A DNA stretch of 64,000 nucleotides, from NCBI GenBank assembly GCA_031292755.1, contig JARLGM010000011.1, forward strand, positions 1 to 64,000, written 5' to 3'. Positions 47,561 through 50,793 of this stretch are shown here, one piece after another. Position 1 is the stretch's first letter. The number at the start of each line of letters is the position of its first letter. The notes below the pieces were generated by a model, which was not told the DNA's origin, searched no databases, and saw nothing but the letters and a program-made list of their open reading frames with translations. Position numbers and translations under genes: made by a program. Source of the DNA: Candidatus Sulfopaludibacter sp. (GTDB lineage Bacteria; Acidobacteriota; Terriglobia; Bryobacterales; Bryobacteraceae).

Positions 47561-49069
47561 CTACCCCTTATACTCCAGCGCTTCGGTGGCGGCTTTCAGC
47601 ATCACGAGGCGTGGAGCGGATTCGCCGGTCCAGATCTCGAACTGGCGAACCGCCTGTTCGATGAACATGTCCAGGCCCGGGATGACGGTCTTTCCCTGTT
47701 CGCGGGCATGTTGCACCAGCAGCGTTTCCAAGGGATTGTAGACCATATCGAAGACAATGTCGGCGGGAATGCTGCCGTTGAAGAAGCATTCGTTCACGTG
47801 GGGGAACATACCCAGCGGCGTGGCATGAATGACGGCATCGAAGTGACGCTGGCCGAGTTGCTCGCGGCCCAGCGCTTCGGCGCCGCAGAGTTTGGAGAGG
47901 GCGCGGACGCGATCGGCATTGCGGCCCACCAGCGAAACCCTGGCGCCGGCATCGGAGAGGGCGCAGGCCGCTCCGCGCGCGGCTCCCCCGTTGCCCACGA
48001 TCAGCACGGACGCTTTCGGCAGCTTCAGAACGCGGGAGAGCGGACCGGTGACGCCGGCGGCATCGGTATTGGTGCCGCGCCACTTACCGGCTTTGCGCCA
48101 CACGGTGTTCACGGCGCCGATGCGCTTGGCCAGCGGATCCACCGCGTCCAGATAGCGGATGATCTTTTGTTTATGCGGAATGGTGACGCTGAACCCGGCC
48201 AGCGGCAGCTTGGCGGCCATGGAGAAAAAGTCGCGCAGGCACGACGGCGACACCAGGAAAGGTAGATAAACCGCGTCCAGCCGGCGGGACTGAAACGCAC
48301 GGTTGTGGACCGCCGGCGAAATGGAGTGGCGAATCGGGTCGGCAATCACCCCGTAGATCTTGGCGGACTTCCCGAGTTTCTCCACGCGATAGAGGTGCCG
48401 CAGGTAACGCGCGTTGACTTGCCCGGCCGCGGTCCCCGAGGCGAACATGGGCGCCGCGTAGGTGTAGACGCCGCCGAACACCGGGGAGAGCACGCGCGTG
48501 GGAAAGCCCAGTTCGCCCATCGCCAGAACGATGAGTTTATGTTTGGGAAGCGCTTTCGCGGCAGAGAGGACGCGGATATTGTCCGAGGGTTTGCGCGCGG
48601 TTGTCACCACCTTGTAAGCGTCGGCCTGCACCTTCATGACGCGATTCATCACCGTGTCCATGGGCGGCGTGGCTTCGAAATTGTGGTACGAAACGATCAC
48701 CTGGGTGCGGCCGCGGAGATAGTGCAGCCGGTCCTGCGCCACTTCCGCCGTTTCGATTTCGATATCGATGGCGTGAGCGCCGGCATCGATCGCCAGGTCC
48801 AGAACCGCCAGTTGCTCTTCGATGCTGCCGTTGAATTTTCCGTGGTTCTGGTGCCGCCGGCAAGTGGCCAGAATGATGCAGTCGGGGAATTGTTCCAGGA
48901 AACCGCGGATCGCGGTCGCGCCCTGGCAAGGGTCATCCAGAAAATCCAAACGGAATTCCAGGAAAACCTCTCCGGCCTCGGCCTCGCGCCGGGCATGGTC
49001 GAGCAATGTTGCAATATCTGGTAATCCCAGCGCGATGCAAATGCGAGGGAGCGACCTTGTCTGCGCCAT
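47561..49069 (-). CDS. aroDE: Bifunctional 3-dehydroquinate dehydratase / shikimate dehydrogenase
   Basis: 502 aa in two parts. Residues about 8-220 are type I dehydroquinase: EFRLDFLDD, DIEIETAEV, the base His in VIVSYHNFEATP, and the Schiff-base Lys in ADAYKVVTTA. Residues about 230-500 are shikimate dehydrogenase: YGVIADPIRHSISPAVHN, TIPHKQKI (catalytic Lys), NTVWRKAGKW-GTNTD, and the NADP-binding GNGGAARGAACAL. Both catalytic sets are complete, so steps three and four of the shikimate pathway are on one chain. Plant and chlamydial enzymes show the same fusion; separate genes are usual in bacteria. It is the last gene of the Tol-Pal cluster, 60 bp after the deoC-like gene. Confidence 0.92.
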   Translation of the reverse strand: MAQTRSLPRICIALGLPDIATLLDHARREAEAGEVFLEFRLDFLDDPCQGATAIRGFLEQFPDCIILATCRRHQNHGKFNGSIEEQLAVLDLAIDAGAHAIDIEIETAEVAQDRLHYLRGRTQVIVSYHNFEATPPMDTVMNRVMKVQADAYKVVTTARKPSDNIRVLSAAKALPKHKLIVLAMGELGFPTRVLSPVFGGVYTYAAPMFASGTAAGQVNARYLRHLYRVEKLGKSAKIYGVIADPIRHSISPAVHNRAFQSRRLDAVYLPFLVSPSCLRDFFSMAAKLPLAGFSVTIPHKQKIIRYLDAVDPLAKRIGAVNTVWRKAGKWRGTNTDAAGVTGPLSRVLKLPKASVLIVGNGGAARGAACALSDAGARVSLVGRNADRVRALSKLCGAEALGREQLGQRHFDAVIHATPLGMFPHVNECFFNGSIPADIVFDMVYNPLETLLVQHAREQGKTVIPGLDMFIEQAVRQFEIWTGESAPRLVMLKAATEALEYKG

Positions 49070-49129: not shown

Positions 49130-49843
49130 TCAACTTTTGGGCGCTTCGAGGCACGATTTCCATCCGTCCAGAATAGCCTTGGTAGACTCCGTTCCGATGC
49201 GCGAACAGCCGGCTTCGTACGCCTCCAGCACTTGCTCTACCGTGCTAAGACCCCCAGCCGCCTTGACGCCGATTTCGTCCGGCAGGTGGCGGCGCAGCAG
49301 GGTGACGTCGCTCCGGACATACCCCGAGGGAGCGAAGCCCGTGGAGGTCTGGACGAAATCGACTTCGGCGCGTTCGCAGCAGCCGCAGGCGATGATCTTC
49401 AGCTCATCGGTGAGGTAGGCGGTCTCCAGAATCACCTGGAGCAGGGCGCCCTCGCGGTGGCAGGCTTCCGATGCCTGCATCAGTTCGGTCTGAACGTGCT
49501 GGAACTCACGCGAAATCAGATTCGGCAGCGCGATCGTCATGTCCACTTCCCGGGCTCCGCGGCGGAGCAGGTCGCGAACCTCGTACAGTTTGACGGCGGT
49601 GGTTTGGGATCCGTGCGGAAAGCCCGCCACGCTACCCGGTTTCACAGTGCTACCCTGCAGGGTGCGCACCGCCAGATCGAGATCGCAAGGGCGCACTATG
49701 ACGCTGGCGACACCATAACGTCGGGCCAGTTCCAGGCCCGCCAGCACGGCGGAGGAAGCGAGTTCCGGCTTGACGAGACTGTGATCGATCAGCGCGGCGA
49801 GGTCCTGGTAGGTGGCCAGCGGGGGCCGCGGATCGGGTGCCAC
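49130..49843 (-). CDS. DeoC-family deoxyribose-phosphate aldolase homologue lacking the Schiff-base lysine
   Basis: 237 aa from GTG 49843, which shares a base with the cpoB stop (TAGTG), an arrangement for coupled translation. The TIM-barrel follows DeoC along its whole length: LIDHSLVKPE, VAGFPHGSQTTAVKLYE, REVDMTIAL, LQVILETAYLTDE, VDFVQTSTGFAPSGY, EIGVKAAGGLSTVEQ. In E. coli DeoC the lysine of FIKTSTG (K167) makes the Schiff base; here the codon is CAG (Gln 165). The second catalytic lysine (K201 in E. coli) is kept as K194 in VKAAGG. The enzyme may therefore be inactive as an aldolase or do something else. Confidence 0.85.
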   Translation of the reverse strand: MAPDPRPPLATYQDLAALIDHSLVKPELASSAVLAGLELARRYGVASVIVRPCDLDLAVRTLQGSTVKPGSVAGFPHGSQTTAVKLYEVRDLLRRGAREVDMTIALPNLISREFQHVQTELMQASEACHREGALLQVILETAYLTDELKIIACGCCERAEVDFVQTSTGFAPSGYVRSDVTLLRRHLPDEIGVKAAGGLSTVEQVLEAYEAGCSRIGTESTKAILDGWKSCLEAPKS

Positions 49844-50793
49844 TAGCCCTTCTTCTTCTTCGGAGTGCCGGGTCTGGAGGCTGCCGGCGTAGGGCAATGA
49901 TAGCCCAGGGACGTCAACTGGTTGCAAGCCTGGGCGGCCTGGTCCGAACGCGGATAGTGGGTGATCAGATCGGTGAATTCATCCTTGCCCTGGGTGCGCC
50001 GGCCGGCCTTCACCAGGCTCATGCCCTTGTAGTACATGGCGTCCTTGGTTTTGGCATTCTCGGGGTATTTTTCCAGCACCATGTCGAACTCATTGGCGGC
50101 ATTGTCGTAATCGCCCCGCGAATAGTGAATCTGGGCGATGTAATACTGCGCCATGGGGGCTTGATCGCCGGTGCCGTAATACTTCAGATAATCGCTGTAC
50201 TCCTGCAAAGCCAGATCGAAATTCCCGCCCTGCCGGTCATGTTCCGCCGCGGAATACAGTTCCCCCGGCTGCATCTGCGGCACTGGGGAGCCGGATGGCA
50301 TGGACGTGCCTCCGGGGCCGGTGGTGGTGCTGCCGGGCGGCGGTACGGGTGGCGTCGAGAGCACCTTGACGGCGTTATTGATATCGCTAAGCTGGCTCTT
50401 CAACTGGGAGACTAAGGTCGTCAACTCGCTCACCGCCTGGCTCACCTGGCGGAAGTCGTTGGACAGGGAATCCATGCGGGCGGAGAGGCCGACCACCGGC
50501 GTGACCACCTTTTCCTGTTGGTCGCGCAGATTCTGCTGAATGCTGCTCTGAATCACGGCGACCGAGGTGTTGGCCCGATTGGCAGCGTCGAGCGCCTGCT
50601 GGGTCATAACCGTTAGAGCAGCGAAATTCTTGTCCTGCGCCTGTTGCAGTTGTTTCATCATATCCTGCAACTGAGCGATATCCCGTTGCAGCTCTTGAAT
50701 CTCTTTGCTGGCCGCCTGAGATCGTTCGGGAGCCAGGGTCATCGCCGCCGCCAGCAGCGCCACACACACGAAAAGGCGTCGGAACATATACAA
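49843..50793 (-). CDS. cpoB: Tol-Pal system protein CpoB (YbgF)
   Basis: 316 aa. A signal peptide (MFRRLFVCVALLAAAMTLAP) and an N-terminal coiled-coil trimerisation segment (KEIQELQRDIAQLQDMMKQL). A Pro/Gly linker and a TPR-like C-terminal domain follow (GGNFDLALQEYSDYLKYYGT, NAANEFDMVLEKYPENAKTKD, YYKGMSLVKAGRRTQGKDEF). CpoB coordinates peptidoglycan synthesis with outer-membrane constriction. It follows pal in the usual operon order, and the deoC-like GTG overlaps its stop by one base. Confidence 0.92.
   Translation of the reverse strand: MYMFRRLFVCVALLAAAMTLAPERSQAASKEIQELQRDIAQLQDMMKQLQQAQDKNFAALTVMTQQALDAANRANTSVAVIQSSIQQNLRDQQEKVVTPVVGLSARMDSLSNDFRQVSQAVSELTTLVSQLKSQLSDINNAVKVLSTPPVPPPGSTTTGPGGTSMPSGSPVPQMQPGELYSAAEHDRQGGNFDLALQEYSDYLKYYGTGDQAPMAQYYIAQIHYSRGDYDNAANEFDMVLEKYPENAKTKDAMYYKGMSLVKAGRRTQGKDEFTDLITHYPRSDQAAQACNQLTSLGYHCPTPAASRPGTPKKKKG

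Follow-up and report, generated by a model that had tools for sequence, protein, structure and literature searches.

Repeated loss of the Schiff-base lysine in a DeoC-like family encoded near cpoB and aroDE, a probable DERA-fold pseudoenzyme of Acidobacteria

The stretch of DNA that we analysed (the window, 64,000 nucleotides) carries a deoC-like gene whose product has glutamine at the position of the lysine that forms the Schiff base in DeoC. The protein belongs to a clade of DeoC paralogues in which this lysine has been lost many separate times (6 as a minimum, about 17 as the probable number), and the copies without it are under purifying selection. That selection keeps the gene intact despite the lysine loss suggests a job which needs the shape of the protein and not its chemistry. 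We consider it likely, with a probability of roughly 0.6, that the clade is a family of DERA-fold pseudoenzymes, kept for a binding or assembly role, from which the aldolase chemistry has been discarded repeatedly. A narrower version of this reading, which we regard as an even bet, is that the DERA barrel, encoded together with Tol-Pal/cpoB and aroDE, was recruited to a non-enzymatic role. It would probably serve in assembly or as an adaptor by way of helices 2-4, and catalysis would be a dispensable leftover shed independently in each of these events.

The deoC-like gene of the window and its clade

The positions of the gene, its neighbours and the residues discussed are given in Table 1, with residue numbers mapped by alignment to E. 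coli K-12 DeoC (NC_000913 b4381). The window protein passes the family test of NCBIfam TIGR00126 (deoC) with 179.4 bits at a cut-off of 117.3, and it scores 31.5 bits against Pfam PF01791 (cut-off 23.8). The AlphaFold model of the window protein, for which the window protein and five relatives were the input, has a mean pLDDT of 90.9. The best PDB matches of this model are DERA structures with both Foldseek and VIA-align, and the VIA-align superposition of the predicted model reaches a Z of up to 34.1 with an rmsd of 1.5 over 221 residues. By its profile scores and its model, the window protein is a DeoC homologue with a predicted DERA-type barrel, and chance similarity is ruled out.

Among the features of an active class I DERA, the Schiff-base lysine is absent from the window protein, and the equivalents of K201 and Asp102 are present. 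A preliminary description of the gene had reported the glutamine (CAG) at the Schiff-base position and the retention of the second catalytic lysine, and both are confirmed by the window codons and the alignment. It gave no strand for the gene and had missed a second replaced lysine, Q136 at E. coli K137, a position where lysine is kept in 49/49 canonical DeoCs compared. A same-genus relative (L004/L009) is 82% identical to the window protein and retains the Schiff-base lysine. Two further DeoCs are encoded in the genome of the window (G000 C36 and C89); they are about 40% identical to the window protein, and both read FVKTSTG. The translational coupling to cpoB that had also been proposed is plausible from the overlap between the GTG start of the gene and the TAG stop of its upstream neighbour. 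The product of the cpoB/ybgF-like gene itself scores 76.3 bits against TIGR02795, under the cut-off of 90.1.

Table 1. Features of the window that are discussed in the text, with positions in the window.
Feature	Positions	Strand	Description and evidence
deoC-like gene of the cpoB/aroDE-linked clade	49130..49843	minus	237 aa, GTG start, without Schiff-base lysine; ORF and translation, TIGR00126, predicted model
Q165, codon CAG	49349..49351	minus	at E. coli Schiff-base K167; window codons and alignment
Q136, codon CAG	49436..49438	minus	at E. coli K137; window codons and alignment
D101, codon GAC	49541..49543	minus	at E. coli D102, kept; window codons and alignment
K194, codon AAG	49262..49264	minus	at E. 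coli K201, kept; window codons and alignment
Residues 51-128, from the end of strand 2 through helix 4	49460..49693	minus	contain 14/16 of the clade-specific sites that lysine-bearing and lysine-less members both conserve
Overlap of cpoB stop TAG and deoC-like start GTG	49841..49845	minus	gggcTAGTGgca, TAGTG
cpoB/ybgF-like gene, upstream Tol-Pal cluster neighbour	49843..50793	minus	PF13525 and TPR matches; start codon uncertain
aroDE, fused type I 3-dehydroquinate dehydratase / shikimate dehydrogenase, downstream neighbour	47561..49069	minus	PF01487, PF08501; TIGR00507 above cut-off

We searched 150 and then 237 genomes of the acidobacterial family of the window, and 247 genomes sampled across the phylum were surveyed with profile A1. 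In these family and phylum genomes, members of the clade were seen in the family of the window only. Records that share a coding sequence with it connect this family to a Bryobacter sp. and to Solibacteraceae/Bryobacterales MAGs. The 29 best matches from other genomes of the phylum (L129-L157) contain no lysine-less copy and all keep the lysine, and the five of them that were placed in the tree (L129-L133) group with canonical DeoC. Since this outside survey covers the best 29 matches and degenerate clade members score down at the level of canonical DeoC, rare clade members may occur elsewhere. The clade has at least 112 distinct members, a lower bound because the low-scoring ones were fetched in part only. 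Rows with identical last 500 coding bases were merged into one, and the truncated L068 was dropped. TIGR00126 matches all 50 A1 members at E <= 0.001, and its cut-off is passed by 10 of the 15 lysine-less copies checked and failed by 5. The support for monophyly of the clade was SH-aLRT 99 in a first, quick tree, which left out five canonical rows and L134-L157, and 61/71 in a careful tree with long branches. The careful tree has 110 rows, with 97 clade leaves (59 without the lysine); 22 near-duplicate or canonical rows were left out of it.

By hand tally, cpoB is the immediate upstream neighbour on the same strand at 55 of the 112 clade loci, and it stands upstream at a distance of 0.7-1.0 kb at a further 38. 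The start of aroDE, taken as the start of the BLAST match, is 9-219 bp downstream of the deoC-like stop in 65/112 loci. Some of the clade loci without a neighbour stop at a contig end. Neither cpoB nor aroDE was found beside canonical DeoC at any of 20 loci, within the flanks compared. Downstream aroDE was also present at loci with no cpoB found upstream, L008 and L071 among them. At L020, L034, L176, L190 and other loci, cpoB and deoC are separated by a conserved gene of some 280 codons whose N-terminus is signal-like, and this gene is present at the loci of lysine-bearing and lysine-less members alike. This intervening gene had no Pfam match at E <= 0.001 (PF06452, CBM9_1, at 0.0038 was below the cut-off) and no match in the genome of the window.

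Loss of the lysine and state of the active site

The Schiff-base lysine is absent in 72/112 distinct clade members, a fraction biased by the partial fetching of low-scoring members and by the full weight that related rows carry, compared with 0/49 canonical DeoCs. Ten residues replace it at position 165 (19 S, 16 E, 10 V, 5 A, 5 T, 4 Q, 4 R, 4 C, 4 G and 1 H). An irreversible-loss count on the careful tree gives 17 events and plain parsimony over the tree 16 changes, and the lower bounds on losses with soft polytomies are 14, 13, 11, 7 or 6, depending on the support threshold. Forcing the window protein together with the lysine-less L006, L013, L116 and L158, a group picked after seeing the tree, changed the log-likelihood by -110.7 (p-AU 5e-117). 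Aligning acidobacterial homologues for the same substitution, as had been suggested, thus revealed a loss that recurs independently within the family. As a control from the same operon we used the Schiff-base lysine of AroD, which we take to be catalytic. It is kept in 64/64 readable clade loci, and in 37/37 beside a lysine-less DeoC.

Of the 32 positions that canonical and lysine-bearing members both conserve, three are changed in the window protein (V103T, K136Q and K165Q), K165 alone in L116, two in L158 and none in L004, and the other lysine-less sequences have 2 to 20 changes (24 sequences listed). With three of the 32 conserved sites changed in the window protein and up to 20 in its relatives, the loss in the window has the appearance of a recent one. 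The window lineage would have lost the lysine after splitting from its same-genus relative. The preliminary description had allowed that a nearby lysine might substitute for the missing one. We looked for a migrated lysine and found no new lysine column at any barrel strand; gains in lysine-less members occur only at positions 157, 184 and 188. Among the lysine-bearing members, K165, K194 and D101 are all kept in 37/40. The three exceptions, L015, L057 and L065, keep K165 and have lost the K201 equivalent (to Ala or Glu), and one of the three is also without D101; catalysis may therefore also go by another route.

According to the available part of PMC6016325, K167 forms the Schiff base and is not exchangeable without losing function. 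This gives good support to the expectation that the window protein should not function like an ordinary DeoC, and on the same chemistry the lysine-less members would lack aldolase activity. D101 is kept in 24/72 lysine-less members and lost in 48/72, and S167, T168, the glycines 197/198 and G217 are retained in 50-60% of them. K194 is kept in 55/72, K136 in 54/72 and both in 42/72, and all three lysines are gone in 5/72. The preliminary description had left two options, a lyase with another mechanism or a non-catalytic protein. The non-catalytic option is favoured because no single replacement residue is found across the lineages and other active-site residues are often lost, and the lyase is the less likely of the two.

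The alternative closest to such a lyase is a changed enzyme, in which K194 or K136, or a new site made of R51, D54, K85 and R112, catalyses a different reaction. It deserves consideration because K194 and K136 are so often kept, alone or together, and in the secondary structure of the model conserved polar residues follow strands 2-4. Some loci also have neighbours that resemble sugar catabolism, presumably a frame like an amidohydrolase below L160 and one like a sugar isomerase above L022. Against it stand the ten different residues at position 165, the frequent loss of Asp101, changes of the glycines 197/198 in about 40% and the five members that have none of the three lysines. The window protein, too, is without K136 as well as K165. 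We regard this alternative as rather unlikely.

Selection and the conserved surface of helices 2-4

Selection on the lysine-less copies was estimated with a custom-written codon model in 16 sets of subclades whose members are all lysine-less. In 16/16 sets omega = 1 was rejected (p <= 5.3e-11). Omega was 0.021-0.078 in twelve sets, 0.135 in one and 0.201 in one, and the values of two saturated pairs (L066/L069 and L175/L176) were left unused. For comparison, omega was 0.011-0.053 in seven lysine-bearing sets and 0.010-0.032 in three canonical ones. Several of the twelve low values are rough because their trees are long, with up to 6.9 substitutions per codon and 5.7 in the pair L193/L194. The sets with short trees agree with them, L177-L179 (length 0.59) having an omega of 0.040 and the nine-member E group (2.84) one of 0.032. 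On the window branch omega was 0.10 against a background of 0.05 (p = 0.050), and omega = 1 was rejected (p = 3.3e-6). All 72 lysine-less proteins are 223-261 aa long. The lysine-less members look like maintained genes and not like pseudogenes, and the raised omega of the window branch and the pair at 0.20 also fit relaxed constraint. In terms of the two marks of a pseudoenzyme, the catalytic motif is missing from the window protein by sequence, and for its retention the purifying selection is seen and a non-catalytic function is what we infer.

Relaxed constraint would be expected if the clade were a redundant aldolase paralogue in slow decay toward loss, with no new function. Redundancy is indeed common, since among good-quality genomes (>=90% complete, <=5% contaminated) a hand tally found another DeoC match in 42/45 with a lysine-less copy and in 19/22 with an intact one. 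Redundancy as the cause of the lysine loss was rejected, since lysine-less copies are not associated with the presence of a further DeoC (Fisher p = 0.39). The gene can also be absent. We inspected 30 hand-chosen genomes without a clade-level match, all of which have aroDE (30/30). In 6/30 of them cpoB lies directly before aroDE with no DeoC match between (with a gap of <100 bp in five genomes and of about 470 bp in the sixth), so the deoC-like gene is dispensable in places. A DeoC-profile match upstream of aroDE was seen in 0/30, for frames of at least 120 aa within the stretch examined. Decay without function is nevertheless disfavoured by the codon models, with omega below 1 in every lysine-less set, as well as by the preserved length of all the lysine-less proteins and by five polar sites kept in every member, four of them unlike the usual canonical DeoC residue. 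We consider it unlikely.

These five sites, K85, R95, R112, E120 and Q123, are kept in 112/112 members, and K85 alone of them is also canonical. The column entropy of lysine-less members exceeds that of lysine-bearing ones by 0.9-1.6 bits on strands 1 and 4-8, by 0.7-0.9 bits (0.74-0.91) on helix 1 and helices 6-8 and by about 0.4-0.5 bits on strands 2 and 3 as well as helix 5; on helices 2, 3 and 4 the difference is just 0.16-0.22 bits, in a comparison with unweighted rows in which the lysine-less rows are more diverged overall. The strands that line the active site have diverged, and the charged surface on helices 2-4 is close to invariant. Helix 3 has an entropy of 0.72 bits in lysine-less members and 1.57 bits in canonical DeoCs, and helix 4 has 1.31 and 1.98 bits, the canonical set spanning two paralogues and more taxa than the lysine-less set. 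Lysine-bearing and lysine-less members alike conserve sixteen sites that are unlike canonical DeoC. The segment of residues 51-128 holds 14/16 of these kept sites compared with 4/29 of the lost sites (Fisher p = 1.7e-6, the limits of the segment having been set after seeing the sites). L008, in which 20/32 universally conserved sites are changed, still models as a DERA-type barrel with a predicted pLDDT of 90.3.

The arginines R60, R94 and R95 of the clade align with E. coli K58, A95 and Y96. In the available part of PMC4725968, the dimer interface of E. coli-type DERA includes K58 and A95, with A95 near the two-fold axis; helices 5-7 lie opposite this interface, and the dimerisation mode of hyperthermophilic DERAs differs. 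Because K58 and A95 are at the interface and helices 5-7 are opposite, the conserved half would correspond to the interface side of E. coli-type DERA, a mapping made from a distant alignment of about 25% identity. Two arginines at the two-fold axis would disfavour an E. coli-type dimer.

In the pseudoenzyme reading that we prefer, a DeoC duplicate in an ancestor of the acidobacterial family would have come to lie next to Tol-Pal/cpoB and aroDE and taken on a second, non-catalytic role. As the genome usually has other DeoCs, the aldolase activity of the duplicate would have become dispensable and then been lost many times. Selection would preserve the fold and the charged surface of helices 2-4 (R51, D54, D56, Y87, D91, R94, R95, R112, F114, E120 and Q123, with R158 and W228). 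The conservation of these sites points to a binding role, and the surface may bind a partner or form an assembly on the face with which E. coli DeoC dimerises. Candidate partners are CpoB, AroDE and canonical DeoC.

If the partner is canonical DeoC, the lysine-less protein might be a regulatory subunit in mixed dimers with the canonical DeoC of the same genome, which it would tune. This is a special case of the pseudoenzyme reading, so that our confidence in the two overlaps. The two other DeoCs with KTST in the genome of the window would supply such a partner, another DeoC match is present in most good-quality lysine-less genomes, and pseudoenzymes are known to act via heterodimers with active paralogues (PMC10211241, in the part available). 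However, the lysine-less copy is the only DeoC found in G196, G198 (both at about 97% completeness) and G120 (91%), and also in the less complete G060 and G192. Moreover, as noted above, another DeoC is about as frequent in genomes with an intact copy. We consider mixed dimers unlikely. A sequencing or assembly error behind Q165 would need one base (AAG to CAG) in the single assembly of the species seen, but it is hardly credible because a single intact frame carries two lysine changes and the lysine is also missing from 71 other distinct relatives, and the window branch is longer than that of L004 in their pair (0.20 vs 0.05).

Relation to known systems

Work on pseudoenzyme families usually deals with the outcome of a single old loss, so that the old function is hard to separate from the new one. 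The clade described here is one ortholog group with many independent losses, some of them recent, beside relatives with an intact active site. With so many losses next to intact relatives, as in the window protein and L004, the order and the cost of losing catalysis become directly testable. The clade is also a hazard for annotation: the 10/15 checked copies that pass the TIGR00126 cut-off without the lysine would count as working aldolases, and in G196 and G198 this would be done where no other DeoC was found. In the open-licence PMC literature on DeoC pseudoenzymes and on DeoC in Acidobacteria or Bryobacter we found no protein of this kind, and the mention of pseudoenzymes in the available part of PMC4207490 is a title in the reference list only.

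The nearest known system is DeoC/DERA itself (TIGR00126, PF01791; E. coli DeoC b4381), with which the window protein shares the predicted barrel fold, homology over the full length and the equivalents of Asp102 and Lys201. Unlike E. coli DeoC, the window protein has Gln at Lys167 and at K137, and the clade has its own conserved charged surface on helices 2-4. The location differs too, E. coli deoC lying with deoA, deoB and deoD, whereas the window gene adjoins cpoB and aroDE. The two canonical DeoCs of the same genome are of the same family, but they keep the motif that the window protein has lost. Pseudoenzymes such as FAM20A/FAM20C (PMC10211241, in the part available) are alike in that a catalytic residue was lost and a role kept, but here a single ortholog group of bacteria shows the loss many times over. 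Macrodomains, which are host-virus conflict proteins and differ from the DeoC-like clade in fold and context, resemble it in the repeated independent loss of catalysis among orthologues (PMC10221186, in the part available).
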